Assembly (NCBI GenBank): GCA_023399455.1
Contig: JAEWPN010000186.1
Span: 1-14,359 of the forward strand
DNA length: 14,359 bases
Source: Bacillota bacterium
Lineage (GTDB): Bacteria; Bacillota; Clostridia; Lachnospirales; Lachnospiraceae
Reading direction: 5' to 3'
Notes under the pieces: generated by a model
Told to the model about the DNA's origin: nothing
Databases searched by the model: none
The model's input: only the letters and a program-made list of their open reading frames with translations
In this document: piece after piece, positions 1 through 14,359 of the stretch
Position numbering within the stretch: position 1 is the first letter of the stretch
Layout: each line of letters opens with the position of its first letter
Position numbers and translations under genes: made by a program

Positions 1-249
1 CCAATCGTTGAGCAGGGGATAGCGGATGGCTCGATTCAGACACAATATTCCGCGGAGCTTTCTGAGCTGATAGTGCTGGCCGCTAATTTCTGGCTCAATC
101 CTATGATTTTTAACAATACACCCGAGGAGTGTTATAGAAAGCTCATGGTGTTCGATCAAATGCTGCGCGGCTTTGGACTGGATGTTTTGGATGACGAAAT
201 GATAAATAGGCTGCAGGAGCTGGCACAGATTTATCAGGATAGTAAATAG
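1..249 (+). CDS. TetR/AcrR-type regulator, C-terminal end (truncated by window edge)
   Basis: An open frame enters from the left edge and ends at TAG 247-249, giving 82 residues. The segment is helical with no membrane stretch (for example LSELIVLAANFWLNPMIFNN and CYRKLMVFDQMLRGFGLDVL), which resembles the ligand-binding and dimerisation half of TetR-family repressors. The DNA-binding N-terminus lies outside the window, so the family call rests on this tail and on context. The gene sits directly upstream of an MFS exporter whose promoter contains a 17-bp palindrome, the usual arrangement for a local efflux repressor. Another all-helical regulator type cannot be excluded. Confidence 0.6.
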   Translation, partial: PIVEQGIADGSIQTQYSAELSELIVLAANFWLNPMIFNNTPEECYRKLMVFDQMLRGFGLDVLDDEMINRLQELAQIYQDSK

Positions 250-311
250 ATTGACGCAGTCGTTTCTTTTGTTTTAGATATATGGACAGAAATATATTTA
301 TAACAGACGTT

Positions 312-340
312 TTGACACCTGCTTTTTATAAATATACATA
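312..340 (+). promoter_or_regulatory. Putative promoter of the MFS transporter gene
   Basis: A perfect -35 hexamer TTGACA lies at 312-317. The -10 is weak: TATACA at 333-338 (15-bp spacer) or TACATA at 335-340 (17-bp spacer). It is the only promoter-like element between the regulator stop and the MFS start. It runs into the palindrome at 338-354, so a protein bound there would cover the -10 and start-point region. Confidence 0.55.
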
Positions 341-354
341 CCGACGTTCGGTAT
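338..354 (+). promoter_or_regulatory. Palindromic operator, probable TetR-type site
   Basis: ATACCGA-CGT-TCGGTAT is a perfect inverted repeat with 7-bp arms and a 3-bp centre. It lies between the promoter and the ribosome binding site (AAGGAG, 358-363) of the MFS gene. Size and symmetry fit a TetR dimer, and a regulator tail ends only about 90 bases upstream. The link to that regulator is inference. Confidence 0.65.
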
Positions 355-372
355 TATAAGGAGATTGAAATT

Positions 373-1611: not shown

Positions 1612-1622
1612 TTCGGAATTAA

Positions 1623-1651
1623 ATGAAAAAATTCAAAAAGTCTGCTATAAT
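1623..1651 (+). promoter_or_regulatory. Extended -10 promoter of mgsA
   Basis: TATAAT at 1646-1651 is a perfect -10, preceded by TG at 1643-1644 (extended -10). The -35 position holds ATGAAA (1623-1628), a 4/6 match with a 17-bp spacer. A start near 1658 would give a roughly 95-nt leader before mgsA. I see no terminator after the MFS gene, so read-through from it is also possible. Confidence 0.6.
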
Positions 1652-1754
1652 ACAAAATGGAAGGCTATAGGAAAACACAGCCTAAAAGTTCAAGAATATT
1701 TTTGATACTTACAAATGCTTAAAATCATACGTAAAGTAAGGAGAAACGAATTGC

Positions 1755-2237
1755 ATGGAAAAAGACTTTATCACACTTACAATTGGGAAACAGAAAAATA
1801 TCGCACTGATTGCTCATGATGCCAAAAAGGCCGATTTGATCAAATGGTGTCAGGATAACAGGGAGATATTAAAGGGGCACTTCCTTTGCGGAACGGGAAC
1901 GACGGCCCATATGATCACGGACAGCACCGGGCTTCCCGTAAGAGGATATAACAGCGGCCCGTTAGGAGGAGACCAACAGATAGGCGCGAAGATCGTAGAA
2001 GGAAGGATCGATTTTGTAATATTCTTCTCGGATCCGCTGACAGCGGCGCCTCATGATCCTGATGTCAAGGCTTTGCTCAGAATCGCCCAGGTGTACGATA
2101 TACCAATCGCGAATAATAAAGCGACCGCTGATTTCCTCATTCAGTCAAAACTGATGAATGAAAGCTATGACCACGATGTTATCAACTTCAGCAAGAATAT
2201 CGCTGAAAGGGCGACTAGTATGAAGGAGAATGCCTAA
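1755..2237 (+). CDS. mgsA: Methylglyoxal synthase
   Basis: Converts dihydroxyacetone phosphate to methylglyoxal and phosphate, a cytosolic bypass that releases phosphate when sugar phosphates accumulate. The 160 residues match the usual 150-160. The active-site set is complete and offset by two from E. coli MgsA: H21, K25, the GPLGGDQQIGA segment with D73, and FFSDPLTAAPHDPDVKAL with D93, H100 and D103. AAGGAG at 1738-1743 supports the ATG at 1755; a TTG four bases earlier is out of frame. It has its own extended -10 promoter and converges on the GntR gene with only 29 bases between stops. None of the GntR-type operator copies lies in front of it, so it is probably not part of the neighbouring regulon. 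Confidence 0.96.
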   Translation: MEKDFITLTIGKQKNIALIAHDAKKADLIKWCQDNREILKGHFLCGTGTTAHMITDSTGLPVRGYNSGPLGGDQQIGAKIVEGRIDFVIFFSDPLTAAPHDPDVKALLRIAQVYDIPIANNKATADFLIQSKLMNESYDHDVINFSKNIAERATSMKENA

Positions 2238-2266
2238 AAGGTCATAGAAATATAAAATAATAAATA

Positions 2267-2929
2267 TTAGCTAAGCGTAGTTATAATGCGCTCCCCTACC
2301 TTTTTTACATGCTCCCGCATGGCTAACACGGCAAAATCTTTTTGATTATTTTCCAGAAAGCGGATAATAGAGGCGTGCTCTTCTATAGCGTTTTCCTTAT
2401 AGGGAGGTAAGGTTCCGGATAAGATATTGATTCTTATCATAATGGGCCCCAGATTTTCTATTGTTTCCACTAAAATAGAGTTGTCGCACAAATGAGCTAT
2501 TTCGTTATGGAACATAGTATCGAGAAGGGCATATTGATAATTATCTTCCGAATGCTTTTCGACCAATTCGCTCTGGGCCTTTTGAATCTCCTTTATTTTA
2601 TGTAGTTTTTCTGCGGCGATGGGAAAGGAAATAAGTTCGATTCCAAGAGGCTCCAGATTAGACCTCATAACGGTGATGTCGTCCACGTCCTTCTGAGTAA
2701 TGGTAGACACATAGATATGTCCCGTTACATCGCAAGCGGCAAGCTTTTCATATACGAGCTGCTGCAGGGCGGAACGGATGGGGGTACGGCTTATGGACAG
2801 AGTAGCGCTAAGCTGTTCTTCCGTCAACGGTGTACCCGGCTCTAATTTATTTAGCAATATGGCTTCTTTTATAGAATTATAAGCTTGTTCTTTCAAGGTG
2901 AGCGTTTTTTGAATGGGTTGTAGTTTCAT
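2267..2929 (-). CDS. GntR-family regulator with FCD ligand domain
   Basis: A 220-residue one-component regulator. Residues about 10-75 form the GntR winged helix (LKEQAYNSIKEAILL, then the recognition region LSISRTPIRSALQQL). Residues about 80-215 form the all-helical FCD domain with the metal-type residues D137, H141, H185 and H207, which in this family hold a divalent ion beside an organic acid or amino acid ligand. The ATG at 2929 is chosen because AGAGG (plus-strand complement 2937-2941) lies 7 bases upstream. An in-frame GTG at 2956 would add nine residues but falls inside the 17-bp operator. The gene is divergent from the RocB operon, and copies of the same motif lie before itself, that operon and the ABC operon, so it is the likely repressor of all three. 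The inducer is unknown. Confidence 0.92.
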   Translation of the reverse strand: MKLQPIQKTLTLKEQAYNSIKEAILLNKLEPGTPLTEEQLSATLSISRTPIRSALQQLVYEKLAACDVTGHIYVSTITQKDVDDITVMRSNLEPLGIELISFPIAAEKLHKIKEIQKAQSELVEKHSEDNYQYALLDTMFHNEIAHLCDNSILVETIENLGPIMIRINILSGTLPPYKENAIEEHASIIRFLENNQKDFAVLAMREHVKKVGERIITTLS

Positions 2930-2941
2930 AAAATATCCTCT

Positions 2942-2958
2942 CTGTATTCTGTACACAT
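2942..2958 (-). promoter_or_regulatory. GntR operator copy A (autoregulatory site)
   Basis: Read on the minus strand this is ATGTGTACAGAATACAG. It matches copies B (3051-3067) and C (9927-9943) at 13 of 17 positions common to all three, in the pattern ATGTrTACAGwAyACrG. It lies about 14 bases downstream of the candidate -10 of the GntR gene and just before its ribosome binding site, as expected for self-repression. It is the least symmetric of the three copies. Confidence 0.72.
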
Positions 2959-2971
2959 TTATATTAAAAAT

Positions 2972-3001
2972 ATTTTACTACATAATTTCTTGGTAATGCA
3001 A
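2972..3001 (-). promoter_or_regulatory. Putative promoter of the GntR gene
   Basis: On the minus strand, TAAAAT (2977 down to 2972) is a 5/6 -10 hexamer. TTGCAT (3001 down to 2996) is a weak -35 at an 18-bp spacer. A start near 2965 would put operator copy A within the first 25 transcribed bases. The -35 is poor, so the assignment is tentative. Confidence 0.4.
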
Positions 3002-3022
3002 CAAAAAAATAAAGATTTATAG

Positions 3023-3051
3023 TTGACAAGTGTAAAAAAGTATGTTAAAAA
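3023..3051 (+). promoter_or_regulatory. Promoter of the RocB catabolic operon
   Basis: Perfect TTGACA at 3023-3028, 17-bp spacer, then TAAAAA at 3046-3051 with TG at 3043-3044 (extended -10). The last base of the -10 is the first base of operator copy B, so the predicted start (about 3058) lies inside the operator. Binding there would block polymerase directly. Confidence 0.7.
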
Positions 3052-3067
3052 TGTATACAGTACACAG
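3051..3067 (+). promoter_or_regulatory. GntR operator copy B
   Basis: ATGTATACAGTACACAG. The core GTATAC-A-GTACAC is an inverted repeat with 6-bp arms and a 1-bp centre, degenerate in one arm. It overlaps the -10 edge and predicted start of the RocB operon promoter and matches copies A and C. The local identity with copy C continues upstream through the A-rich stretch that precedes the motif. Confidence 0.78.
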
Positions 3068-3078
3068 AACTATAAAGC

Positions 3079-3113
3079 AAAGAGGCTTCTACGAAATCGT
3101 AGAGGCCTTTTTT
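3079..3113 (+). terminator. Intrinsic terminator in the RocB operon leader (possible attenuator)
   Basis: AGGCTTCTACG (3083-3093), loop AAAT, then CGTAGAGGCCT (3098-3108) form an 11-bp stem with one G-U pair, followed by TTTTTT (3108-3113). Flanking A and T residues can lengthen the stem. The U-tract faces rightward, and the upstream gene (GntR) points left, so this hairpin does not end a preceding plus-strand gene. It lies after the promoter and operator of the RocB operon and 31 bases before its start codon, which marks it as a leader terminator. The antitermination signal is not evident: only about 20 nt of transcript precede the stem. Confidence 0.78.
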
Positions 3114-3144
3114 ACATTCTGGAAAAAGAAAGGGGAGATATCGT

Positions 3145-4770
3145 TTGATCAATGAAGATATGCTGATGCTCACAAAGGAGCTGGTAAATATCAATAGTGT
3201 TAATACCACGGATGGGGAGCGGGAAATCGGTTTGTTTATGGAAGCATATATAAGAGAGATTCCCTATTTCAAGAGGCATCCTGATCAGGTAATCGTGAGA
3301 GAATTAAAGGATGATCCGCTTCACCGCCGAAATGTAATGGCGTTATTGATCGGAGAAAAAGAAAGAAAGAAAAGAACGCTGCTGTTTCACGGGCATACGG
3401 ATACCGTAGGAATTGAGGAATATGGCGCACTAAAGCCATTTGCATGCAAACCGGATGAATTAATGGAGGCGCTGGCGGGCTTGGATCTGGCACCGGAGGT
3501 AAGAGAGGATCTGGAATCCGGCAATTATCTGTTTGGAAGAGGGAGCTGCGATATGAAGAGCGGCGATGCGGTTTTTCTCGGCATTTTAAAAGAAATGTGC
3601 GGGCAGGTTCAGAATCTTAGCGGAAATATTCTGGTATCCTTCAATCCGGTGGAAGAAAACCTGCATACGGGTATCATAGAGGGACTGGATATTTTAGAGG
3701 AGCTGAAGAAGACCTATGAGCTGGAATACATACTGGCGATCAACAACGATTTCATATGCCCTTTGTTCCCGGACGACCAGATAAAAACTTTGTATACAGG
3801 AACTGTTGGCAAACTGCTTCCCTGTTTCTATATACAGGGAAAGGAAACCCATGTGGGACAGTGCTTTGAAGGTTTTGATGCATCCATGGTCGCGGCCGGA
3901 CTGGTGGATAAGATTAATTTGAACAGCGCTTTTTCGGACGAATATGAAGGGGAATATACCTATCCGCCCTCTGTGCTGAAAATGAAAGATTTAAAACCAT
4001 GGTACAATGTGCAGACAGCTTCGGAGGCATTCGTATACTTTAATTATTTTGTTCATAATGCCTCTATGGAGGAGATCATCGGGAAATTAATTACGGCGGC
4101 TAAAGAGGTAATGCAGGAGGCGCTGGCAAAAATCAATGAAATGAGCGCGCGTTTCAGTAAGCTGAGCGGCCAGGCACATAAGGATTATGAGTACCCTTAC
4201 CGGATAATGACCTATGAGGAGCTTTGGCAGATTGCAAAAGACAGAGGCTGTACGGAAAAGGATTTGGAGAGCAGGATTTTGGACGAAATGAAAAAGGGGA
4301 CGGATAAAAGAGAAATTCCTATCCAGACGGTTCGGTATCTCCTTCATGCGGCCGGCATTACTGTTCCGGCAGTGATTTTGTACTTTGCAGCGCCTTATTG
4401 CCCTCATAATACGCTGCAGGGTAAAGAGGAAGAAATAATTTCCCGGATACGGAAAATCGTGCAGGAGGTATCTGATGATACGGGGGAAACTTTTCGCTTT
4501 ATGAAGTTCTTCCCAAGCCTTTCCGACAGCAGTTATCTGAAAATAGACGATTCGGAGGAATCCCTCGGGCTTCTTACGGACAACTTTCCCGGAATGAAGG
4601 AGTTATATCCTATACCGGTAGATCAGATCAAAAGGCTCAATATTCCGGCAGTCAATTATGGCTGCTATGGAAAAGATGCTCATAAGTGGACGGAAAGAGT
4701 GAATATTCCGTATACCTTTGAAGTATTGCCGCAGCTGCTGCGTAAGACGATTGCGTTCTATTTACAATAA
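3145..4770 (+). CDS. rocB: RocB-type M20 metallohydrolase
   Basis: A 541-residue cytosolic protein of the M20 zinc peptidase/amidohydrolase family. It is the long RocB type (B. subtilis RocB is of similar size) rather than the 370-450-residue ArgE/DapE type. The di-metal set is visible: HGHTDTVG (H84, D86), GRGSCDMKSG (D136), NPVEEN (base E170, ligand E171), KETHVGQ (H236) and GKDAHKW near the C-terminus (H513). The start is TTG: AGGGGAG at 3131-3137 is 7 bases before it, while the first in-frame ATG (3160) is too far away. In Bacillus rocB lies with arginine catabolic genes, and its exact reaction is not something I can state. Hydrolysis of an amide, carbamoyl or peptide bond in an arginine-like substrate is inference. 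First gene of the operon. Confidence 0.88.
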   Translation: MINEDMLMLTKELVNINSVNTTDGEREIGLFMEAYIREIPYFKRHPDQVIVRELKDDPLHRRNVMALLIGEKERKKRTLLFHGHTDTVGIEEYGALKPFACKPDELMEALAGLDLAPEVREDLESGNYLFGRGSCDMKSGDAVFLGILKEMCGQVQNLSGNILVSFNPVEENLHTGIIEGLDILEELKKTYELEYILAINNDFICPLFPDDQIKTLYTGTVGKLLPCFYIQGKETHVGQCFEGFDASMVAAGLVDKINLNSAFSDEYEGEYTYPPSVLKMKDLKPWYNVQTASEAFVYFNYFVHNASMEEIIGKLITAAKEVMQEALAKINEMSARFSKLSGQAHKDYEYPYRIMTYEELWQIAKDRGCTEKDLESRILDEMKKGTDKREIPIQTVRYLLHAAGITVPAVILYFAAPYCPHNTLQGKEEEIISRIRKIVQEVSDDTGETFRFMKFFPSLSDSSYLKIDDSEESLGLLTDNFPGMKELYPIPVDQIKRLNIPAVNYGCYGKDAHKWTERVNIPYTFEVLPQLLRKTIAFYLQ

Positions 4771-4804
4771 GGCCCGCCACATGAGGCAGATAGGAGTGAA
4801 CATC

Positions 4805-5971
4805 ATGAAAAACATAGTATTAAGCGGGAGAAAAATAGTAATGGGTAACGGTGCCCTCTCTTTTCTTAAGGAGCTGAAATATGATAAGGCATTGATCGTC
4901 ACAGGAGGAAGCTCGATGATAAGAACGGGCGTCATCAAAGAGGCAACGGATTATCTGGAGCATAAGGGCGGTGAGGTGAAGGTGCATGCAGGAGTTGTCT
5001 CCGACCCTACGATCGAAGAGGTTATGAGAGGAGTTGCTGTCATGAAGGAATTTAAGCCTCAGGCCGTAATAGCCATAGGAGGCGGTTCCGCGATGGATTG
5101 TGCGAAAGCAATGCTTTTATTTTATGAATTTCCAATGCTTACCTTTGAGAATGTGCTGGAAATAAATGCCCGGGGCGAAATTCCGAAGGGGCGGAAAACA
5201 GAGCTTATCTGTGTTCCCTCCACATCGGGAACCGGATCGGAGGTAACGAGAGGAACGGTAATAACAGACCTTGAAAAACAATTAAAGGTTCCCATTATGA
5301 CAGATTGCCTAAGGCCGGATATTGCGATTTTAGACGGAAGGCTTCCGATGACAATGCCGAAGAATATTGTGGCTGAAACAGGAATGGATGCGCTGACACA
5401 TGCTATGGAGGCTTATATCAATCACAATCTGGATGAATTCGATGAAGCCTTGTGCAGCGGGGCTATTACGGGAATTATGAAATGGATGCCCGTGTCATAT
5501 AGGAAGGAGAACGAAGAAGAAATGCTGGCGGCACGGGAGAAGGTACATTATTATCAAGCGATGGCAGGCATAGGCTTTGCAAATGTAGGGCTTGGGATGG
5601 TACATGGTATCGCCCATTCCTTCGGAGCCGTTTTTCACATGGCGCATGGGCTTACCAATGCAATTATTCTGCCTTATGCCCTGGCATATAATCGCCGGAA
5701 TAGCGAAGTGGAGAATAAATTAAGGGAACTGTCCTATCGCTGCCGTTGTAACGATATCGTAGAAGAAATAAAAGAGCTTGCAAAACAGTTGAATATTCCT
5801 TCCAGTATTGCAGGTGCAGGAGTAGAAGAGAAAGATTTTCTGGAAAAGTATGATATTCTGACCGATCATGCCATGCTTGGTGCAACGAGAGTTAACCCGG
5901 TACCGATAGATATGGATACGATGGAGAAGTTCATAAATGCGGTTTATTATGGTACGGATATAAACTTTTAG
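4805..5971 (+). CDS. Iron-dependent (group III) alcohol dehydrogenase
   Basis: A 388-residue NAD(P)-dependent alcohol/aldehyde oxidoreductase of the Fe-ADH family, about the usual 380-390. GGGSAMD (92-98) binds the dinucleotide. D195 and H199 (TGMDALTHAMEAY) with H267 and H281 (GMVHGIAHSFGAVFHMAHG) form the iron site with the same spacings as FucO. The ATG at 4805 is set by AGGAG (4792-4796); an in-frame ATG at 4718 lies inside the upstream gene without a supporting site. It follows RocB by 34 bases and precedes an omega-aminotransferase gene by 12. That pairing fits reduction of the semialdehyde made by transamination, as in GABA or 5-aminovalerate fermentation (4-hydroxybutyrate or 5-hydroxyvalerate dehydrogenase type). 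The true aldehyde is not determined. Confidence 0.92.
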   Translation: MKNIVLSGRKIVMGNGALSFLKELKYDKALIVTGGSSMIRTGVIKEATDYLEHKGGEVKVHAGVVSDPTIEEVMRGVAVMKEFKPQAVIAIGGGSAMDCAKAMLLFYEFPMLTFENVLEINARGEIPKGRKTELICVPSTSGTGSEVTRGTVITDLEKQLKVPIMTDCLRPDIAILDGRLPMTMPKNIVAETGMDALTHAMEAYINHNLDEFDEALCSGAITGIMKWMPVSYRKENEEEMLAAREKVHYYQAMAGIGFANVGLGMVHGIAHSFGAVFHMAHGLTNAIILPYALAYNRRNSEVENKLRELSYRCRCNDIVEEIKELAKQLNIPSSIAGAGVEEKDFLEKYDILTDHAMLGATRVNPVPIDMDTMEKFINAVYYGTDINF

Positions 5972-5983
5972 GAGGATGGGACA

Positions 5984-7261
5984 ATGAAGAGCATGTATGA
6001 AAGATGTATGGATGTAATGCCGGCGGTAGCAAGACGGGCAACAACACTCGGCATAACGGATTCCGAAGGCTGTTATGTATTTACGGAGGATGGCAGAAAG
6101 ATTCTTGATTTCGCAAGCGGTGTGGCAGTGAATAACATCGGATGCAGGAATGAGAGGGTGATAAATGCCATTAAGGAGCAGATGGAAACCATGATCCACG
6201 TGGGTCATAATGTGGTTTACTATGAAGCCTACGTGAGGCTTGCCGAACAACTTGTGGAACTGACGGGAGGAGATACCAAGGTATATTTCAGCAATTCCGG
6301 AGCGGAAGCGAATGAAGGCGCCATTAAGCTTGCTAAGTACGTGACAAAGCGTCCCGGCGTGATCAGCTTTAAGAATTCTTTTCACGGAAGAACTATAGGA
6401 ACGATATCTATAACCGGTTCCAATGCCGCGTATCGGAAATATTATGAGCCTCTGTTACCAAGCGTATATTGGGCCGACTATGCGAATTGCTACAGATGTC
6501 CTTTCGCACAGAAGAAGGACACCTGTCATATGGAATGCCTCGGCCAGTTCGAGCAGATCTTTTCCAGACTTATTGCGCCGGAGTGTGTAGCGGCTATTGT
6601 CGTAGAGCCCGTTCAGGGAGAAGGCGGATATATTGCTCCGCCTAAGGAATTCTTAACAGGACTTAGGAAAATATGTGATGATCACGGTATTGTTCTCATA
6701 TTTGATGAGATACAGACCGGAATCGGCAGAACGGGTGAGTTGTTCGCTTTCCAGACCTATGGGGTAAAGCCGGATATCCTTACTTCTGCAAAGGCATTGG
6801 GCGGCGGTATTCCGCTGTCGGCAGTCATTGCCAAAAAAGAACTGATGGACTTATGGCCGGCTGGCGCCCACGGAGGCACTTTCGGAGGAAATCCGCTGGC
6901 TTGTGCCGCAGGCCTTGCGACTCTTCAGGTAATTGAAGAGGAGAAACTGCTGGAGAACTGCAAAGAAATGGGAAGCTATTTTAAAGAGAGGCTTTCGGCT
7001 CTGCAAAAGAAATTCGCCTCCGTAATCGGCGATGTTCGTGGGATAGGCCTGATGCTGGCAATGGAAATCGTTAAAACAGGGAACGAACCGGATGCCGCTC
7101 TTACCGATAAGATAAAAAATAGGGCATTGGAAAAGGATTTGCTCCTTTTGACTTGCGGAGCCGATCATAATGTGGTTCGTTTTATCGCTCCTCTCATCAT
7201 AACGAAGAGTGAGATAGATAGTGTAATAGAAATAATAGATGAAATTTTAAGCGAAAAGTAG
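5984..7261 (+). CDS. Class III PLP aminotransferase (GABA/ornithine omega-aminotransferase type)
   Basis: A 425-residue fold-type I aminotransferase of the acetylornithine/ornithine/GABA group. Visible parts are SGAEAN (105-110, phosphate cup), HGRT (134-137), EPVQGEGG (E208), FDEIQTGIGRTG (D241, pyridine-nitrogen contact) and SAKALGGG with Schiff-base K270. An unusual C-x2-C-x8-C-x3-C cluster (C169, C172, C181, C185) suggests a structural metal site; I recall similar cysteine motifs in some broad-range archaeal class III enzymes. It would move a terminal amino group, from ornithine, GABA, 5-aminovalerate or similar, to 2-oxoglutarate or pyruvate and yield a semialdehyde for the ADH encoded just upstream. 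The strong AGGAGG (5970-5975) overlaps the ADH stop codon, indicating one operon. Exact substrate unknown; amino acid racemase/epimerase relatives exist in this family. Confidence 0.92.
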   Translation: MKSMYERCMDVMPAVARRATTLGITDSEGCYVFTEDGRKILDFASGVAVNNIGCRNERVINAIKEQMETMIHVGHNVVYYEAYVRLAEQLVELTGGDTKVYFSNSGAEANEGAIKLAKYVTKRPGVISFKNSFHGRTIGTISITGSNAAYRKYYEPLLPSVYWADYANCYRCPFAQKKDTCHMECLGQFEQIFSRLIAPECVAAIVVEPVQGEGGYIAPPKEFLTGLRKICDDHGIVLIFDEIQTGIGRTGELFAFQTYGVKPDILTSAKALGGGIPLSAVIAKKELMDLWPAGAHGGTFGGNPLACAAGLATLQVIEEEKLLENCKEMGSYFKERLSALQKKFASVIGDVRGIGLMLAMEIVKTGNEPDAALTDKIKNRALEKDLLLLTCGADHNVVRFIAPLIITKSEIDSVIEIIDEILSEK

Positions 7262-7271
7262 GCGGAATATT

Positions 7272-8198
7272 ATGGTGCTTTTTCAACAAATGCTTATATT
7301 TTTTATTATAATGCTACTGGGATATTATGGCGCTCGAAAAGGCATATTGGATGACGTTACTGGAAAGAGCCTGTCGTGGCTGGTAGTTCATATTGCCAAT
7401 CCCGCATTGATATTGTCAGGCTGTGCAGGAGGACAGATGGTGGTAAAAGAGCTGCTGTTCACAGGTATACTGGCCGTCTTGCTCTTTTTGGTTTTGATAA
7501 TATCGGCAGAAATCGTCATACCGATGTTTTTTCACGAAAGGGAAAAGAGGGGCGGCTATAAGGTGATGCTTGTTTTTTCCAACATGGGATTTATGGGATT
7601 CCCGCTGATTTCGGCAGTCTATGGTCAATCCGCCATAATGTATGCCGCTATTTTTCTCATTCCCTTTAACCTTTTAATTTATACTTATGGAATTTTCCGC
7701 ATTGGTAAAATGGGTAAAAGGGAAGACTTGGAGGGCAGAAAGACCGTGCAATGGAAACCGATGTTGAATAGCGGAGTCATTGCATGTCTGTTAGCAATTG
7801 GAATCGAAGTGACCCGCTTTCCGGTTCCTGAAATGTCAATGAAGCTGATTGAAATGCTGGGCGGAATGACCGCACCGCTTAGTATGTTGATTATTGGGGC
7901 ATCTTTTCGGTGACTTTCCACAAAAAAACTAATCACAGATAAGAAATTATTGGGCTTTTCTTTTTTGAAATTAATGGCACTTCCTGTGGCAGGCATGTTG
8001 TTTCTTAAGCAGTTTGTGGAAAATGAAGTTCTGCTTGGCGTCTGCTTCATCGTATTGGCAGCTCCTGCAGGAAGTATGGTGGTTATTCTGAGCAAGCAGT
8101 ACGGAGGCGACGAGAATACGGCAGTTAAGGGAGTAGCGTTTACTACACTGCTGTCCGTACTTACTATGCCTTTGGCCGCAAAGCTCGCAGGCTTGTAA
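7272..8198 (+). pseudogene. AEC-family carrier, frame broken by two compensating homopolymer changes
   Basis: Together the two open pieces (7272-7913, 213 residues; about 7950-8198, 82 residues) make a roughly 308-codon auxin-efflux-carrier-type membrane protein of normal length. About ten hydrophobic helices and the family pattern VFSNMGFMGFPL are visible. Both pieces are in the same frame but are separated by TGA at 7911. Removing one T from the T4 run (about 7904-7907) and adding one A to the A7 run (7922-7928) restores continuous, family-like sequence GASFGDFPQKKLITDKK with no stop. So either this copy is inactivated or the assembly carries two homopolymer errors. The rest shows no decay, which favours error or a very recent lesion. 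AEC proteins move organic acids or amino acids; here it could export a fermentation acid or import substrate. Its ribosome binding site (GGCGG) is weak, so translation may be coupled to the aminotransferase, which ends 10 bases earlier. Confidence 0.82.
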
Positions 8199-8234
8199 CA
8201 GACAGTAGATTCATACAGATAGGAGGTATCAGAT

Positions 8235-9221
8235 ATGGCGACTTTACAAATGTACATGGATAGAAGTAAGATCGATAACTTATTCACATCCGAAGTATTT
8301 GAGGAAGTATGGGGGGAAGGCTTTGGGGTGAATAATTCTGTGGGTAAAATTAAAAGGATTCTAATGCACTGCCCGGGAGAAGAATTAGAGCAGCTCGCCA
8401 ACGGAGAATATGAGGAAGAAGCCGGCGCAAGGATTTTGAAAAGTAAAGAGGGAAGGATTAGAAATTATTTCAAGTCTTATGAGCTTCCGGACATCGGACT
8501 GATGCGGGAGCAGCATAACCGGATGGCGGATATACTGAGGGCGAACGGAACGGAAGTGCTTTATTTAGAGGACCCGGCAAATTATTGGACCAATCTGACC
8601 TTTACCAGAGATGTGGCGCTGATGCTGCCGAAGGGAGCTGTGCTGACAAGGTTTGCCATGTATTTTCATCAGGGAGACACATGGCTTACGCAGAAACTAT
8701 TGGCGGAGCAGAATATTCCTATTTTAGGTGCGATACAAGGAAATGGTACAGTAGAGGGTGGTTCCTTTTCCATGCTGGATCCAAAGACGGCTGTTATTGG
8801 GCGATCCGTCCGTGTGAACGACGCAGGAATCGAACAACTCCGGACCTTGCTTTCCTATCAGGATATCGAGCTGATTGTAGTGGATATGCCCGCTTATTAT
8901 ATTCATCTGGATGAAGCTTTTGTGCCCGTTGATAAGGATAAGGTTCTGGTAAGCACCTTTATTCTTCCCCATTGGTTCTTAAAGCTGTTACAGGAGAGGG
9001 GGTACCGGCTGATTGAGACGGACAGGGAGGACCCTATGCTGACCAATAACTGTATCGCCATGGAGCCGGGGAAGGTATTATTCTCTTCAAAGGGTGTGAA
9101 TACGAGAAAGAACCTTGAGGAAGCAGGCGTCGAAGTGGTTGCGGCGGATATCTCGGAGATTAACAAGCTGGGAGGAGGAATCCACTGTTCCACGCTGCCG
9201 TTGTTAAGGGAATCGATATGA
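8235..9221 (+). CDS. Guanidino-group-modifying hydrolase (arginine deiminase/DDAH-like amidinotransferase family)
   Basis: A 328-residue protein of the GME fold (PF02274 type) that attacks a guanidino or ureido carbon through a cysteine adduct. The set is complete: FTRD (123-126), GTVEGGSFSMLD (E174), YYIHLDEAF (H224, D226) and GGGIHCSTLPLLRE (nucleophile C318). It is shorter than classical arginine deiminase (about 410) and near DDAH and citrulline-hydrolase-like members in size. It may therefore act on free arginine, a methylated or chain-modified arginine, a guanidino acid, or citrulline. No carbamate kinase or ornithine carbamoyltransferase gene accompanies it, so this is not an ordinary ADI pathway cluster. 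AGGAGG at 8221-8226 supports the ATG. Its presence beside RocB is the best clue that the operon substrate has a guanidino or ureido group. Confidence 0.87.
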   Translation: MATLQMYMDRSKIDNLFTSEVFEEVWGEGFGVNNSVGKIKRILMHCPGEELEQLANGEYEEEAGARILKSKEGRIRNYFKSYELPDIGLMREQHNRMADILRANGTEVLYLEDPANYWTNLTFTRDVALMLPKGAVLTRFAMYFHQGDTWLTQKLLAEQNIPILGAIQGNGTVEGGSFSMLDPKTAVIGRSVRVNDAGIEQLRTLLSYQDIELIVVDMPAYYIHLDEAFVPVDKDKVLVSTFILPHWFLKLLQERGYRLIETDREDPMLTNNCIAMEPGKVLFSSKGVNTRKNLEEAGVEVVAADISEINKLGGGIHCSTLPLLRESI

Positions 9222-9253
9222 GCGGGGACAATTTCGCCAAAGGAGGAAGCGAT

Positions 9254-9880
9254 ATGAGCAAATATGTAATTACCATAACCAGACAATTTGGAAGTATGGG
9301 GCGCCCCATTGCCCAAAAGCTGGCTAAACGGCTGGGCATCAACTATTATGACCGCGACATTGTGGATATGACTGCTAAGGAGATGAATGTGCCGGTCTCC
9401 GTCATAGGGGAGCTGGAAGAAGCGGTGCAGGGTAAGTTCTTTCGCATGAAATATCCTCTGGGTATGGGAACCAGCGATATGCAGAACGATATTTTCGATA
9501 CGCAGCGTAAGCTTATCCAAGGTATCGCAGATAAGGAATCCTGCATTATCGTAGGAAGATGTTCCGACTATATTTTGCACGAATATCCGAACAGTCTTCA
9601 TGTCTTTATCTATGCTCCTGATGAGATTAGGTATGAAACCTGTATACAAAAGTTTTGTATGCAGCCCGATGAAGCCAGGAGAATGATGCTGGAGGTGGAC
9701 AAGGCAAGAGAGCGTTATCATAAAACCTATGCAGGATATCTGCCTCAGGATTACCGTTATAAAGATTTAATGCTTGACAGCAGCCTGCTGGGAGTGGATG
9801 GAACGGTAACGTATCTGGAGCAGTTGGTGAATCTGTATGTAACAAAGGACAATGATAAAAAAAATAAAGTGGAAAAATAG
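9254..9880 (+). CDS. Cytidylate-kinase-like family protein
   Basis: A 208-residue protein with the N-terminal pattern of the AAA-type cytidylate kinase-like family (VITITRQFGSMGRPIAQKLAKRLGINYYDRDIV). The loop GSMGRPIA replaces a classical GxxxxGKS Walker A, as is usual in this family. A later CIIVGRCSDYIL is the second conserved block. Housekeeping Cmk is longer and has a standard P-loop, so this is a paralogue of unknown substrate. AAGGAGG (9240-9246) with a 7-base gap supports ATG 9254; an ATG at 9218 overlapping the upstream stop has no such site. It is the last gene of the RocB operon. It could phosphorylate a small molecule or act as a regulator; neither can be shown here. Confidence 0.82.
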   Translation: MSKYVITITRQFGSMGRPIAQKLAKRLGINYYDRDIVDMTAKEMNVPVSVIGELEEAVQGKFFRMKYPLGMGTSDMQNDIFDTQRKLIQGIADKESCIIVGRCSDYILHEYPNSLHVFIYAPDEIRYETCIQKFCMQPDEARRMMLEVDKARERYHKTYAGYLPQDYRYKDLMLDSSLLGVDGTVTYLEQLVNLYVTKDNDKKNKVEK

Positions 9881-9882
9881 TA

Positions 9883-9911
9883 TTGACAAGTATATACGCA
9901 CATGATAAAGT
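9883..9911 (+). promoter_or_regulatory. Promoter of the ABC transporter operon
   Basis: TTGACA at 9883-9888 starts two bases after the stop codon of the kinase-like gene. A 17-bp spacer leads to TAAAGT (9906-9911) with TG at 9903-9904. The first nine bases, TTGACAAGT, equal those of the RocB operon promoter. Another TAAAAA (9921-9926), abutting operator copy C just as in the RocB promoter, lacks a matching -35. With the first choice the start is near 9918 and the operator lies at about +10 to +26. Confidence 0.6.
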
Positions 9912-9926
9912 ATAAGAAATTAAAAA

Positions 9927-9943
9927 ATGTATACAGTATACGG
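9927..9943 (+). promoter_or_regulatory. GntR operator copy C
   Basis: ATGTATACAGTATACGG. Its core GTATAC-A-GTATAC (9929-9941) is a perfect 6-1-6 inverted repeat, the most symmetric of the three copies. It stands between the ABC operon promoter and its leader terminator. The match to copy B includes the preceding A-run, so the two promoter regions look like copies of one regulatory module. Confidence 0.78.
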
Positions 9944-9973
9944 TACGAATTATTCCACATATGGAAGAAAACG

Positions 9974-10011
9974 AAGGCGTTTGATTTGAAATAGAATCAG
10001 GCGCCTTTTTT
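9974..10011 (+). terminator. Intrinsic terminator in the ABC operon leader
   Basis: AAGGCGTTTGATT (9974-9986) pairs with AATCAGGCGCCTT (9995-10007) in a 13-bp stem with two G-U pairs and an 8-nt loop, followed by a six-T run (10006-10011). It can end read-through from the RocB operon. It also lies downstream of a promoter and operator C, so transcripts starting at 9883 must pass it to reach the ABC genes. This is the same order as in the RocB leader. Confidence 0.78.
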
Positions 10012-10030
10012 GTAATAAGAAAGTTTTGGT

Positions 10031-10161
10031 TTACTGTTCACACAGCAGCTTAACACTCGCTGTTAAGCTTCGTAAGAACGTGATTCAGGAGATGATTTCT
10101 GCTTCGCAAAGCGAATTTAAATGCGGAAATCATGGGTTGCTGTGAACGGAGTGAACAGTAA
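10031..10161 (+). repeat. Nested inverted-repeat element in the ABC leader (cloverleaf-like)
   Basis: The ends TTACTGTTCAC (10031-10041) and GTGAACAGTAA (10151-10161) are perfect 11-bp inverted repeats. Inside are a 9-bp perfect hairpin (AGCTTAACA 10047-10055 / TGTTAAGCT 10061-10069, loop CTCGC) and a second hairpin (10092-10102 / 10123-10133, one G-U) whose tip is TTCGC-AAA-GCGAA. A competing pairing of ACAGCAGC (10042-10049) with GTTGCTGT (10136-10143) exists. The GTGAAC unit occurs twice on the right side (10142-10147 and 10151-10156). No open frame of note. It could be a small palindromic or MITE-like repeat that landed in the leader, or a regulatory RNA domain. I do not recognise it as a known riboswitch. 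Confidence 0.6.
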
Positions 10162-10198
10162 CAGTTCTTGACTCACTATTCGGAAAGGAAGGGCAATT

Positions 10199-10936
10199 AT
10201 GGAGAATACGAAAATTTTATCCATTAGAAACGTATCCAAAAATTATAATTCTCTTCAAGTGCTTAAAAAAATCAATCTGGACATTAAACGAGGGGAAGTG
10301 GTCGCCATTATCGGACCCTCCGGCTCAGGCAAGAGTACGCTGCTTCGCTGTATGAACGCACTGGAAACGGTGAACGGAGGAGAAATCTGGTTCAAGGACC
10401 AATGCTTTACGGAAAAGTTTAAGAGCTATGACCGTTTAAGGCAGGATATCGGCATGGTATTTCAGCACTTCAATTTATTTCCGCATATGACGGTACTGAA
10501 GAACATTATGATTTCTCCGCTTAAGGTGAAGAAGAGACCGAAAGAGGAAATGATGGCAAAGGCTCTGGAATTATTGCGGATTGTAGGACTGGAGGATAAA
10601 AGGGAAGTCTACCCGGAGATGCTTTCGGGCGGACAGAAACAAAGAATTGCTATTGCAAGGGCACTCGCAATGGAGCCGGAAATTTTATTATTCGATGAAC
10701 CTACCTCAGCGCTGGATCCCGAGATGGTAGGAGAAGTGCTGAACACTATGAAAAATCTGGCGGAGTCTGGAATGACTATGGTCGTAGTAACACATGAAAT
10801 GGGATTCGCCAGAGAAGTAGCGGACAGAGTGGTTTTTATGGATGAAGGAATCATCATGGAGGAAGGAACGCCTAAACAGATATTTGAAGATACGCAGAAT
10901 GAACGGGTAAAGGCGTTCTTAGAAAAAATGTTATAG
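10199..10936 (+). CDS. Polar amino acid ABC transporter, ATP-binding protein (GlnQ/HisP type)
   Basis: A 245-residue ABC ATPase of the polar amino acid uptake family. Present are Walker [10 protein letters not shown] (39-47), Q-loop Q89 ([15 protein letters not shown]), signature LSGGQKQR (142-149), Walker [14 protein letters not shown] (162-174) and switch H199 ([17 protein letters not shown]). The last motif and the length are typical of GlnQ/HisP/ArtP-type subunits. AGGAAGGG (10186-10193) precedes the ATG. It is the first gene of the second unit, behind a 280-nt leader with operator C, a terminator and the nested repeat. It powers import through the permease encoded next. Arginine, ornithine, glutamine or a related molecule are all possible substrates. 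Confidence 0.95.
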
Positions 10937-10951
10937 AAAGAGGGAAAGAAA

Positions 10952-11644
10952 ATGGCAGGAGTATTACAGGTTATATACAAATACCAGATTCTTATTTGGA
11001 ATGGCACTAAAATAACATTGTTGATATCTGTATTGACAGTGATTTTAGGATTGATATTCGGTACCTTAATGGCATTTATGAAGCGGAGCAGAAGCAGAAT
11101 TCTAAGAATAATCGCAGGAATCTATGTGGAATTCATCAGGGGTACGCCGGTACTGGTACAGATTTTCATTGTATTTTACGGACTTCCGCTCATGGGAATC
11201 AATATTCCCTCAATCATGCTGGGAGGAACGGATATTTCCAGACTGCTGTCAGGCATCATTGCCCTAAGTGTGAACTCTACGGCATATATTTGCGAAATCG
11301 TCAGAAGCGGTATTCAGTCCATTGACATAGGGCAGACAGAAGGCGGCAAGGCACTCGGAATGAACAGCTTTAGAACGATGTGGTATGTGATTCTTCCCCA
11401 GGCCGTCAAAAATATTCTTCCGGCAATGGGCAATGAATTTGTTACAGTAATTAAGACCTCTTCACAGGTATCGGTCATCGGGATTGCAGAACTTATGTAT
11501 GCGGCAGATACCATACGGGGGATCAGCTTCCGTCCGATGGAGCCCTTAGTCATCGTAGCAATGATCTATTTCATTATTACCTTCACACTGTCCTGCATGA
11601 TCAAGCAGGTGGAGAAAAGGCTGAGGAAAAGCAGCCGAAGATAA
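10952..11644 (+). CDS. Polar amino acid ABC transporter, permease (HisM/GlnP type)
   Basis: A 230-residue inner-membrane protein with about five hydrophobic helices, the normal size for a HisMQ/GlnP permease. The family entry motif VEFIRGTPVLVQIFIVFYGLP is at 59-79. The cytoplasmic EAA-like coupling loop (EGGKALGMNSFRTMWYVILPQA, about 130-151) contacts the ATPase. Only one permease gene is present, so the channel is probably a homodimer. It begins 15 bases after the ATPase stop and is followed after 13 bases by the dehydrogenase gene, indicating one transcript. Confidence 0.94.
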   Translation: MAGVLQVIYKYQILIWNGTKITLLISVLTVILGLIFGTLMAFMKRSRSRILRIIAGIYVEFIRGTPVLVQIFIVFYGLPLMGINIPSIMLGGTDISRLLSGIIALSVNSTAYICEIVRSGIQSIDIGQTEGGKALGMNSFRTMWYVILPQAVKNILPAMGNEFVTVIKTSSQVSVIGIAELMYAADTIRGISFRPMEPLVIVAMIYFIITFTLSCMIKQVEKRLRKSSRR

Positions 11645-11657
11645 AGGAGGAGAGGAT

Positions 11658-12656
11658 ATGAAGGTTGTTATTACCGATTATCCGGATGTTTTAGGAAGAA
11701 ATCTGGATTATGAAAAGGAAATCCTGGAAAGCGGCATTGAAAAATGCCGGACCATCATATATCCCTATCGCGGCGACAGGGAGGAGTTCAAAAATATAAT
11801 TGCTGATGCGGATGCCGTGCTGACAGCTTTTGTGAATATGGATCAGGAAATCTTGAACTGTGCGGAAAAATTGAAATGTGTCTGCTTCAATGCGACCGGT
11901 TATGATTTCATTGATTATGAGGCGGCGTGCAGAAGAAATATAGGAATTGTTCCTATCGGTGAATATTGTACGGGCGAGGTAGCGGACCATACGATGGCAT
12001 TGATTCTTACTCTTTTAAGAGGCGTGAAGCATTATACGAAAGACATTGAGGAGAGGAAAACATGGCAGTATTATTCGGGGCAAAAGCTTAGGCGTCTTAG
12101 AGGAATGCAGATGGGCATCTTCGGATTGGGAAAGATAGGAAGAGCGGTAGCCGGGCGTGCGCAGGCCTTTGGTATAAGGGTCGTCGCCTATGATCCGTAT
12201 CTGCCGGAGGAGACGGCAAAGCAGGCGGGTATCGAGCTGGTGGATATAGATTATATTCTGGAGAATTGTCATATTATTTCCAACCATATGAACCAGACAA
12301 CGGAAAACCATTATTTTTTTAACAAAGAGCGCTTTGAACGGATGAAGCAAAAGCCGGTATTCATCAATGTGGGACGCGGCGGTGCCGTAGATGAAAAGTC
12401 TTTGGCGTGGGCGCTGGAACAAGAGCTTTTGTTTGGAGCCGGGTTAGATGTTCTCGAGGAGGAAAAACCGGATTTGGATCATAATGCTCTGATCGGACGG
12501 GAGAACGTGATCATTACTCCCCATGCCGCTTTCTATACCGAAGAATCATTGAAGGATCTGCAGAGAATTTCTTGTGAAAATGTCGTCCATTATTTGCGGG
12601 GGGAATACGAACAGGTAAATAGAATTGTAAATAAAAGCCGTATTCAAATTGGGTAA
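11658..12656 (+). CDS. D-isomer-specific 2-hydroxyacid dehydrogenase
   Basis: A 332-residue NAD(P)-linked oxidoreductase that interconverts a 2-oxo acid and a D-2-hydroxy acid. The dinucleotide motif is GLGKIG (156-161) with acidic D179 after the second strand, which favours NAD. The catalytic triad is R240 (NVGRGGAVDE), E269 (DVLEEEKPD) and H289 (TPHAAFYTEES). The strong AAGGAGG (11644-11650) overlaps the permease stop. Its place between permease and binding-protein genes is unusual and suggests that it acts on the imported compound, for instance reducing a 2-oxo acid formed by transamination. Glyoxylate/hydroxypyruvate, D-lactate and phosphoglycerate members share these motifs, so the substrate is open. 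Confidence 0.92.
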   Translation: MKVVITDYPDVLGRNLDYEKEILESGIEKCRTIIYPYRGDREEFKNIIADADAVLTAFVNMDQEILNCAEKLKCVCFNATGYDFIDYEAACRRNIGIVPIGEYCTGEVADHTMALILTLLRGVKHYTKDIEERKTWQYYSGQKLRRLRGMQMGIFGLGKIGRAVAGRAQAFGIRVVAYDPYLPEETAKQAGIELVDIDYILENCHIISNHMNQTTENHYFFNKERFERMKQKPVFINVGRGGAVDEKSLAWALEQELLFGAGLDVLEEEKPDLDHNALIGRENVIITPHAAFYTEESLKDLQRISCENVVHYLRGEYEQVNRIVNKSRIQIG

Positions 12657-12724
12657 CTGAAAGGACTGCCCGGAAAGGGTGGAAATTTTAAGATAAGTTT
12701 CATCATAATAAGGAGGAGAAGTTT

Positions 12725-13666
12725 ATGAAGAAAAGAAAATTGACAGCATTGATTATGTCCGCTATTATGGGAGCCATGCTTTTCACAGGCTGCGGCAGTT
12801 CTCAAAGTGAGGCGACGGACGAGGCGAGCACTCAGCCTGCGGCAGAAAGCAGCGAGGAAGCTTCCGTCGAAGAGGAGGCGGAAACAGACGAAACGGTTAC
12901 GGAAGCAGCGGATACAGAGGAAACTGCACAGGCGGACGGACCGGTGCTCGCATCCATTAAGGAAGCCGGAAAGTTAGTTGTGGGAACGGCTTCGGGTTAT
13001 CCCCCATATGAATTTATTGACATTACATCTCCCGATCAGGCGGTAGTTGGAATCGATATGGAGCTTGCTAAGAAAATTGCGGAAGAGTTAGGAGTAGAAC
13101 TGGAGATCCAGGATATGACCTTTACTTCTTTAATATCTTCTATCCCTACGCACAAGGTGGATATGGCGATTGCCGGTATCTCTATTACAGAAGAGAGAAA
13201 AGAGACCATGGATTTCTCGGAGCCTTATCTGGAGGCTGCTCAGAAGATTCTGATTTTGAAGGAAAACACAGAAAAATATAATACATTGGAATCGTTCTCC
13301 GGGGAAGCGGTAGCAGCGGAAAAATCGACGACTCAGGAAGCCGTTGCGCAGGAATTAATGGCGGATTCGCCGTTGGTTTCCTTAGAAAAAGTACCCGACT
13401 GCCTTATGGAATTGCAGAATGGCAAGGTTGCCGGTGTAGTGGTGGAAGGCATAGTAGGAGAACAGTATGTCTTCGCATATGATAATATTGTATTCAGCGA
13501 TGCAGATATGGAGAGGAGCAAGACCTCTGCGGTCGCATTGGACAAGGGGAATGAAGACTTGATTGCAATCATCAATAAGGTAATTGCAGAAAACGTTGAA
13601 AACGGCAACTTCGATAAGTGGGTGGAGGAGTACAGCGAGAAGGCTGCAGCCAATGCTAAGGAGTAA
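12725..13666 (+). CDS. Extracellular solute-binding lipoprotein (SBP_bac_3, amino acid type)
   Basis: A 313-residue lipoprotein. The lysine-rich N-terminus, hydrophobic core and lipobox LFTGC predict cleavage before C23 and anchoring to the outer face of the membrane. Residues about 24-72 form an acidic Glu/Ser/Thr/Ala-rich flexible linker. From about 75 the family 3 fold begins (KLVVGTASGYPPYEFID, VVGIDMELAKKIAEELG, DMAIAGISITEERKETMDFSEPYL). It captures the substrate for the ABC permease encoded upstream. AAGGAGG (12710-12716) supports the ATG. It is the last gene of the operon, separated from the permease by the dehydrogenase gene, and is followed by a strong terminator. Ligand class is polar amino acids or analogues; specificity cannot be read. 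Confidence 0.94.
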   Translation: MKKRKLTALIMSAIMGAMLFTGCGSSQSEATDEASTQPAAESSEEASVEEEAETDETVTEAADTEETAQADGPVLASIKEAGKLVVGTASGYPPYEFIDITSPDQAVVGIDMELAKKIAEELGVELEIQDMTFTSLISSIPTHKVDMAIAGISITEERKETMDFSEPYLEAAQKILILKENTEKYNTLESFSGEAVAAEKSTTQEAVAQELMADSPLVSLEKVPDCLMELQNGKVAGVVVEGIVGEQYVFAYDNIVFSDADMERSKTSAVALDKGNEDLIAIINKVIAENVENGNFDKWVEEYSEKAAANAKE

Positions 13667-13704
13667 CATCTAAATTATTATAAAACTTTGTGTCAGGAAT
13701 TAAG

Positions 13705-13749
13705 AAAGGGACCGCCGCACGAGCGATAGAATAGTGCGGCGGTCCTTTT
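13705..13749 (+). terminator. Strong intrinsic terminator between convergent genes
   Basis: GGACCGCCGCAC (13709-13720) and GTGCGGCGGTCC (13734-13745) form a perfect GC-rich 12-bp stem with a 13-nt loop. It is extended by a G-U pair and A-T pairs and followed by TTTT (13746-13749). It ends the ABC operon. A-rich bases on the left flank make it usable in the opposite direction for the DUF368 gene too. Confidence 0.92.
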
Positions 13750-13784
13750 CCCGGCTGATAATTTATTCCCGCGAGGGTATTTGA

Positions 13785-14359
13785 TTAATCCTCCGGCTTA
13801 TATCTCTTTTCCAGCATGCTCATCCAGTAGCCCAGTGCGGCTCCGGCAGCACACATAATGACACATATTATCGTACCGGCACTGAGATAGTTGAAGTCCC
13901 TCGGTATGATCATCACAGTAGAGGCAAAGACTATGCCCAAGATAAAATGGAACAGACCCGCATATGCTCTGGAGAAAATATAATCCATCAATTTCGCAAG
14001 AAGAAGTACACAGGCGAGTCCGCCGATTGCCAGAGGAATGAGAACGCCCATGTCTATAGTCTTAATGCCGTCAGCCATGGCCTTGTACATTCCCATGTAA
14101 ACTAAGAAATTAGACGGGCTGAGTCCTGGAACGATAACACCGAGTCCGATCAGTGCACCTGCTAACATCCATGTGCCGAAGTTCTGCGGAACACCGGTAC
14201 TGAACAGCTCTTCACCGTAAAACAAGAATACCAGGCCAATAATAAATGTAATAACGAGAATAACGATATGTTTGCTGCTTCGTCCCTTCTTACCGGCCTG
14301 TTCCCACAGGGCGGGTACCGTTCCTACAATACAGCCGACAAAGAACCAAAGTATATATG
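13785..14359 (-). CDS. DUF368 membrane protein (undecaprenyl phosphate translocase family), 5' part outside window
   Basis: On the minus strand an open frame ends at TAA (13787 to 13785) and stays open to the right edge, giving 190 visible C-terminal residues. The segment YILWFFVGCIVGTVPALWEQAG, near the window edge, and GLGVIVPGLSPSNFLVYMGMYKA are the two PALW/PG-type re-entrant repeats typical of DUF368 (PF04018). About five further hydrophobic stretches are visible. DUF368 proteins have been shown in other bacteria to recycle the lipid carrier undecaprenyl phosphate across the membrane. A TTG at 14225 could look like a start, but the family sequence clearly continues upstream of it. The gene converges on the ABC operon and is probably unrelated to it. 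Confidence 0.85.
   Translation of the reverse strand, partial: YILWFFVGCIVGTVPALWEQAGKKGRSSKHIVILVITFIIGLVFLFYGEELFSTGVPQNFGTWMLAGALIGLGVIVPGLSPSNFLVYMGMYKAMADGIKTIDMGVLIPLAIGGLACVLLLAKLMDYIFSRAYAGLFHFILGIVFASTVMIIPRDFNYLSAGTIICVIMCAAGAALGYWMSMLEKRYKPED

Follow-up and report, generated by a model that had tools for sequence, protein, structure and literature searches.

How might a bacterium break down a guanidino amino acid with a gene set that has neither ornithine carbamoyltransferase nor carbamate kinase? The question is raised by a 14,359-nucleotide stretch of DNA from a Lachnospiraceae member of the Bacillota (contig JAEWPN010000186.1, positions 1 to 14,359; hereafter the window), in which genes for a RocB-type hydrolase, an arginine-deiminase-like hydrolase of the GME superfamily, a transaminase, two dehydrogenases and an amino acid importer lie together. 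A preliminary description had proposed a regulated catabolic unit that takes a guanidino or ureido amino acid through a reductive route. In comparative loci the genes for hydrolase, transaminase and reductase stay together, and some of these loci hold two transaminase/reductase couples. This co-conservation supports the unit; the substrate, step order, product and role of RocB given below are proposals. Judging from related sets elsewhere among bacteria, the arginine route may be one not yet described. We favor a dedicated arginine-scavenging route, comprising import, removal of nitrogen and reduction to a hydroxy acid, at a rough probability of 0.45.

The open reading frames and their Pfam and NCBIfam profile matches define two operons read in the same direction and a regulator gene that diverges from the first. 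The first operon encodes, in order and on the plus strand, a RocB-type M20 metallohydrolase (3145..4770; a putative citrulline or ureido hydrolase), an iron-containing alcohol dehydrogenase (4805..5971; Pfam Fe-ADH, with an additional upstream TTG start at 4718), a class III, omega-type aminotransferase (5984..7261; Pfam Aminotran_3, and 613 bits to NF005993, cut-off 574), an AEC-family carrier (7272..8198; Pfam Mem_trans), the GME hydrolase (8235..9221; Pfam ADI, 90.9 bits) and a cytidylate-kinase-like protein (9254..9880; Cytidylate_kin2, PF13189, 164.7 bits). The second operon, also on the plus strand, encodes the ATPase of a polar amino acid ABC importer (10199..10936; up to 320 bits to NCBIfam importer ATPases, the best 25 models all below cut-off), its permease (10952..11644; TIGR01726 over cut-off), a D-isomer-specific 2-hydroxyacid dehydrogenase (11658..12656; Pfam 2-Hacid_dh and 2-Hacid_dh_C) and a substrate-binding lipoprotein (12725..13666). 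Gaps within each operon are 10–68 bp. Profile matches recovered every gene named in the preliminary description, from whose list the cytidylate-kinase-like gene is missing. Its picture of one unit under a shared operator holds for the operator; the genes themselves form two operons, separated by 318 bp that contain a third operator copy.

In alignments, the window GME protein has the catalytic residues of ArcA, Cys318, His224 and Glu174, and the two guanidino-binding aspartates, Asp126 and Asp226; the roles of this Cys-His-Glu set and Asp pair are described for arginine deiminase (PMC3474736). Asn120 and Arg193, which contact the α-group in that enzyme, are also kept. Arginine deiminase is the best structural match, ahead of the arginine dihydrolase ArgZ. 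Where the ArcA-size proteins of the alignment have the approximately 85-residue helical insert of ArcA, the window protein has a gap. Scores fall below cut-off for the models of ArcA (TIGR01078, 89.4 of 489.1 bits), dimethylargininase (DDAH; best NCBIfam model, 69.5 of 340 bits) and arginine dihydrolase (NF052232, 45 of 450 bits). For ArgZ we take Asn71 to be the key residue (a structure title carries an N71S variant), and Asp126 is presumably its counterpart. According to the accessible part of one report, the citrullinase CtlX is marked by a change of FTRD to FPNN and of HLD to HTN, Asn replacing both guanidino-binding Asp (PMC9007349). Both the window translation and the copy in the nearest genome, G001 (4.7 Mb; 93% of sampled words common to the window), carry FTRD and HLD, and we rejected a CtlX-type citrullinase. 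Because the Asp pair and most α-group contacts are kept and the CtlX marker is absent, citrulline is unlikely as the direct GME substrate and guanidinobutyrate less likely. The list of candidate substrates proposed at the outset is thereby narrowed, and an arginine-like substrate stays.

The window RocB shares 67% identity with a protein annotated as RocB (P0010), and its subclade looks new. Five residues are invariant in the RocB alignment (H84, D136, E170, E171 and H513) and D211 is nearly so, which completes what we take to be the M20 metal-ligand set. The closest solved folds are DapE, ArgE, CPG2 and peptidases; by fold, a deacylase, a peptidase and a carbamoylase could not be told apart. 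That Bacillus subtilis RocB is probably a citrullinase is already published (PMC4813224, in the portion available). We tentatively assign the conversion of citrulline to ornithine to RocB, the only window gene that could perform it. RocB could instead act upstream and release arginine or ornithine from acylated or peptide forms, as a deacylase or dipeptidase, with the GME protein serving as an ArgZ/AgrE-like arginine dihydrolase or with citrulline as the end product. The closest folds would suit this role, RocB relatives adjoin genes of the arginine deiminase pathway, and an Amidohydro_3 protein lies near RocB in two loci (L107 and L064). Furthermore, Rv2323c, a related GME protein, is required for arginine use, and RocB does not appear among the genes listed for its cluster in the accessible text (PMC4569260). 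Set against these points, the window GME protein fits arginine deiminase better than ArgZ, stays far under the dihydrolase cut-off and keeps both guanidino-binding Asp. A class III transaminase also needs a free amine, and RocB is present in all 14 loci with such a transaminase, a weak argument as these loci were chosen by their clade RocB. We regard the upstream role as unlikely, though deserving of serious attention.

The association of these genes was analyzed in two genome samples. With thresholds of E up to 1e-40 for RocB and 1e-20 for GME, the family sample of 299 genomes contains RocB in 13, GME in 11 and both in 9 (p = 8e-13, relatedness ignored), and all nine genomes with both carry them at one locus. 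In the class sample (391 genomes), a GME/ArcA-type match occurs in 23 of the 30 genomes with RocB vs 54 of the 361 others (p = 2e-12, again ignoring relatedness). The gene-neighborhood check called for earlier links RocB to GME, and the class III transaminase and iron-containing dehydrogenase occur with them in part of the RocB-clade loci. Only RocB searches give unbiased GME rates. Twelve clade members were found in this way (G001, G266, G032, G083, G048, G070, G123, G250, G106, G084, G626 and G609): an aminotransferase lies near RocB in every one and GME within 10 kb in 10, the exceptions being G609, with GME elsewhere in the genome, and G106, with none at the family-sample threshold. Across 23 clade loci, GME is present in 22, a class III transaminase in 14, an α-type transaminase in 13 and at least one of the two in all 23; the iron-containing dehydrogenase is found in 10, always with the class III transaminase, the D-2-hydroxyacid dehydrogenase in 12 (eight with an α-type transaminase) and importer parts in 18. 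Thirty loci outside the clade, several of them short contigs in which absences are undercounted and some from genomes that contribute more than one locus, contain a GME/ArcA-type gene in six, a transaminase in one, importer parts in two and neither dehydrogenase. Three further loci (L108–L110), not counted among the 30, hold no aminotransferase above 150 bits and neither dehydrogenase. The gene table was built with cut-offs and seeds specific to this analysis; L001–L013 and L031–L060 were dropped as duplicates of longer loci, and L027, L028, L099 (truncated) and L100 (no RocB) appear in the table and were excluded from the 23. Two loci illustrate the full set: an uninterrupted run of RocB, GME, a HisC-like transaminase, D-2-hydroxyacid dehydrogenase, iron-containing dehydrogenase and class III transaminase in L096, and RocB, GME, class I and class III transaminases and both dehydrogenases in L061, from another family. 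A ureohydrolase near RocB in L062, below every cut-off, was considered as a GME replacement and rejected, as that genome has GME elsewhere.

Among solved structures, 4-aminobutyrate (GABA) transaminases give the best matches to the class III transaminase (E 5e-97 to 4e-94); 3ruy, named an ornithine aminotransferase, follows at E 2e-54, and we rejected a RocD-type ornithine aminotransferase on this ground. One match at E 2e-94, 7vno, is titled a hypothetical GABA transaminase and is presumably an archaeal ornithine transaminase. The best PDB matches of the binding lipoprotein are 4h5f, 4ymx, 4i62 and 6svf, which we take to be arginine binders, so that this protein appears arginine-binder-like. 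The transaminase result bears on an alternative in which the substrate is a guanidino or ureido acid without an α-amino group, such as 4-guanidinobutyrate, passing through GABA and succinate semialdehyde to 4-hydroxybutyrate. The iron-containing dehydrogenase would fit the semialdehyde reduction, but it scores 175 of 500 bits against the 4-hydroxybutyrate dehydrogenase model. Moreover, the importer is of amino-acid type, GME keeps the α-group contacts Asn120 and Arg193, and the D-2-hydroxyacid dehydrogenase and the α-type transaminases of relatives would be left without a role. We find this alternative very improbable. An ordinary route from arginine through ornithine and glutamate semialdehyde to proline or glutamate, with the dehydrogenases serving an unrelated fermentation, fares somewhat better and is still improbable. 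Glutamate semialdehyde from a transaminase would be normal, and Sporolactobacillus loci hold, of the families searched, only GME, RocB and the class III transaminase (plus the importer in L030). The dehydrogenases argue otherwise: they occur in 10 and 12 of the 23 clade loci vs none of the 30 outside, and in the window both lie within the same regulated operons.

Based on these observations, we suggest the following arginine-scavenging route. The importer would take up arginine or a very close α-amino guanidino acid. GME, a deiminase without the ArcA insert, would hydrolyze guanidino to ureido with release of ammonia, giving citrulline; RocB would remove the ureido group as CO2 and ammonia, giving ornithine, and would stand in for ornithine carbamoyltransferase and carbamate kinase. 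Transaminases would then transfer the amino nitrogen to a 2-oxo acid, leaving a carbonyl for dehydrogenases to reduce, the class III transaminase and the iron-containing dehydrogenase acting at the far end, and the α-type transaminase of many relatives and the D-2-hydroxyacid dehydrogenase at the α end. The pairing of transaminases and reductases in the loci suggests that amino groups are swapped for hydroxyls. The hydroxy acid would probably leave via the AEC carrier. The cytidylate-kinase-like protein, encoded in 9 of the 23 clade loci (twice in L018), might phosphorylate a product. If true, the route would give a testable role and context to RocB, an enzyme named long ago whose reaction is unproven, would explain how citrulline could be used without carbamate kinase in some anaerobes, and predicts arginine-derived hydroxy acids in the metabolomes of rumen and gut. 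The bacteria of these two sites, by breaking down arginine, influence how much ammonia is released and nitrogen lost.

In a more far-reaching version, the full system would strip all four nitrogens from arginine and leave a 2,5-dihydroxy-C5 acid: the deiminase and RocB would free the guanidino nitrogens, and two transaminase and reductase couples would replace both amino groups by hydroxyls, under double control by the leader and the GntR protein. If so, the sum would be redox-neutral with glutamate dehydrogenase, arginine would be an electron sink if glutamate is used for growth, and the route would be an anaerobic one that yields no ATP and needs neither a selenoprotein nor a B12 enzyme. We consider this version doubtful. 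It is made less likely by the HisC-like transaminases of L095 and L096, which score above the cut-off of the model for histidinol-phosphate transaminase; these proteins are placed in the pathway by gene order, and their action on ornithine is putative.

Besides the HisC-like proteins, several observations weigh against the arginine-scavenging route. Both transaminase types occur together in 4 of the 23 clade loci, and 4 of the 12 loci with D-2-hydroxyacid dehydrogenase, that of G001 included, have no α-type transaminase nearby. GME presence among the 23 is not independent, since 21 were found via GME searches, and the p values of both samples take no account of relatedness. A full-length carbamate-kinase-like gene is present in 12 of 14 genomes tested, G001 included (three over cut-off); G626 has the cluster and only weak, partial matches to carbamate kinase. 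Outside the clade, RocB relatives lie beside ArcA and ornithine carbamoyltransferase (L083), or these two and carbamate kinase (L086), where a citrullinase looks redundant given the deiminase-pathway genes. In L082, L083 and L086 an ArcA-size gene comes after the RocB relative, followed by ornithine carbamoyltransferase in L083 and L086. The clade member L107 has RocB, class III transaminase and iron-containing dehydrogenase and no GME; this locus (L107:1163-12062) also encodes two Amidohydro_3 proteins, an APH-type kinase and a second class III transaminase, and is possibly a sister pathway. RocB as a pure GME partner is thus too simple, and one reading that fits both L107 and the deiminase-pathway neighbors is a general RocB activity on ureido or acyl-amino acids. 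In the window an in-frame stop at 7911-7913, either a sequencing error or a natural break, interrupts the AEC gene, whose G001 copy is intact and 315 codons long. In the structural comparison the nitroimidazole hydrolase NnhA reaches the same Z as the lowest-ranking arginine deiminase entry (33.4), but with a root-mean-square deviation of 2.7–3.0, and the GME fold alone is therefore no proof of arginine as substrate.

A further point against arginine itself concerns the carboxylate-binding Arg pair of arginine deiminase and DDAH. Arg193 is kept. At the other position the window protein and the rest of its rumen clade have His (His145), a substitution confined to that clade; Sporolactobacillus and the other GME type have Arg there. 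The substrate might then be an arginine analogue, such as a methylarginine, an α-hydroxy analogue or a plant toxin met in the rumen (indospicine or canavanine), handled by the same deiminase-type chemistry. The isolate names of many relatives suggest cow and horse sources, the RUG names being, we assume, rumen ones. Yet the other substrate contacts of arginine deiminase are kept and the binding protein resembles the presumed arginine binders, and we hold an analogue to be rather improbable. Indospicine is broken down in rumen cultures, and the enzyme responsible could not be named by the authors in the available text (PMC8226729). Indospicine was rejected as a substrate here, as its degradation gives 2-aminopimelic acid, in which a class III transaminase would find no far-end amine.

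Each enzyme family in the cluster is already known; the combination looks new, and a literature search, with most subscription journals and all preprints outside its coverage, turned up no paper on this gene set among those it listed. The arginine deiminase pathway (ArcA, ornithine carbamoyltransferase, carbamate kinase) shares Cys-dependent deimination of a guanidino amino acid by the same catalytic residues. It differs in the ArcA insert and in the score that separates the window GME from ArcA, and where it uses ornithine carbamoyltransferase and carbamate kinase the window has RocB and a reductive tail. The expectation that the usual arginine genes would be absent stands for the window, where neither of these two is among the named genes and no semialdehyde dehydrogenase was found; for the first two it fails in the nearest genome, as G001 encodes, outside the cluster, an ornithine carbamoyltransferase over cut-off and a carbamate-kinase-like protein (317 bits, cut-off 358). 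In L093, the cluster locus of G001, a short ornithine-carbamoyltransferase-like gene (L093:3486-4316) that stays under all curated cut-offs lies upstream, its end about 0.5 kb from where the window begins. The arginase (Roc) pathway of B. subtilis, regulated by RocR, likewise has RocB and a transaminase acting on an amine. In contrast, the window has no arginase, a transaminase that resembles GABA transaminase more than it does RocD-type enzymes, reduction in place of RocA oxidation, and a GntR/FCD repressor. The CtlX route also uses a GME-superfamily protein and reaches ornithine from citrulline without carbamate kinase, as far as the accessible text describes it (PMC9007349); as the window GME keeps the Asp residues that are Asn in CtlX, RocB would have to carry out the citrulline step. 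Cyanobacterial ArgZ/AgrE (PMC8262935) has an insert-less GME fold and converts arginine to ornithine, but is a weaker structural match than arginine deiminase, and its ornithine cyclodeaminase domain is missing from the window protein. In the mycobacterial Rv2323c/rocDE cluster, an insert-less GME gene used for arginine adjoins transaminase and permease genes, whereas RocB and the two dehydrogenases are not in the gene list of the portion available (PMC4569260).

The shared operator was confirmed. Exact copies of ATGTRTACAGWAYACRG lie before the repressor gene (O1, 2942-2958, minus strand), before rocB (O2, 3051-3067, plus) and before the importer operon (O3, 9927-9943, plus). The pattern was derived from the sites themselves, so the following test is partly circular: at up to three mismatches the window holds five matches vs 0.18 expected, and none of 200 shuffles holds more than two. 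In the G001 genome, the exact matches are the same three sites, and one-mismatch matches number zero; a wider regulon was rejected, the 14 further matches having two mismatches (5 in the reversed control) and none being better. A scan of 14 cluster loci found all three operators in L093; five others (L094, L014, L015, L016 and L020) have the motif with at most one mismatch before rocB and with three or four before the ABC gene. The remaining eight have no match at fewer than three mismatches, and weak matches (three or four) lie near cluster genes in L021, L023, L025 and L026. With exact copies in G001 confined to the cluster and the motif kept in relatives, both operons look like a small private regulon. 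From its position, we infer that the divergent GntR/FCD-family protein (2267..2929, minus; Pfam GntR and FCD over cut-off), whose counterparts adjoin the cluster in relatives, would bind the three operators and repress both operons. Promoter-like sites, identified by consensus match only, precede the rocB operon (3023..3052, plus; TTGACA-18-AAAAAT, 10/12) and the importer operon (9883..9911, plus; TTGACA-17-TAAAGT, 10/12).

Each leader also contains an intrinsic-terminator hairpin, at 3079-3112 between O2 and rocB (plus; 15 pairs, a loop of 4 and a T-run) and at 9973-10008 between O3 and the ABC gene (plus; 15 pairs). All 12 operon leaders of six loci examined have a strong hairpin of this kind. 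Under strong criteria (at least 11 pairs, 4 G-C and 6 T), fixed after the hairpins were known, 11 of the 13 plus-strand terminators in the six loci are these leaders, the second leader of L020 falling below threshold; a looser scan found the second window hairpin and missed the first. Across the six loci the stem sequences vary among species and pairing is preserved. In the rocB leader stem 72 of 72 cells are paired, with 5 of 12 pairs changed on both sides (covariation 0.61 vs 0.28 in shuffles); the ABC leader stem has 76 of 76 cells paired and 5 of 13 pairs so changed (0.52 vs 0.27). As the hairpins were chosen for pairing, full pairing is partly by construction and the two-sided changes are the informative part. 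The first hairpin belongs to the rocB leader, since no same-strand gene upstream needs a terminator and the start codon lies 32 bp further on; the second could also terminate the first operon. A known riboswitch was rejected: the whole window has no Rfam match at gathering score, and a separate search of one leader region, 2930-3150, gave 23 weak matches, all far below their gathering scores. The leader terminators look new. They would have to be read through for expression, presumably by attenuation or antitermination, and their pairing with an operator would make a compact control device.

A dispersed repeat of about 135 bp (10027-10165) lies between the second hairpin and the ABC gene; it is absent from G266 and G032 and has 42 whole or partial matches in G001. 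Directly upstream of the regulator, the window encodes a methylglyoxal synthase (1755-2237).

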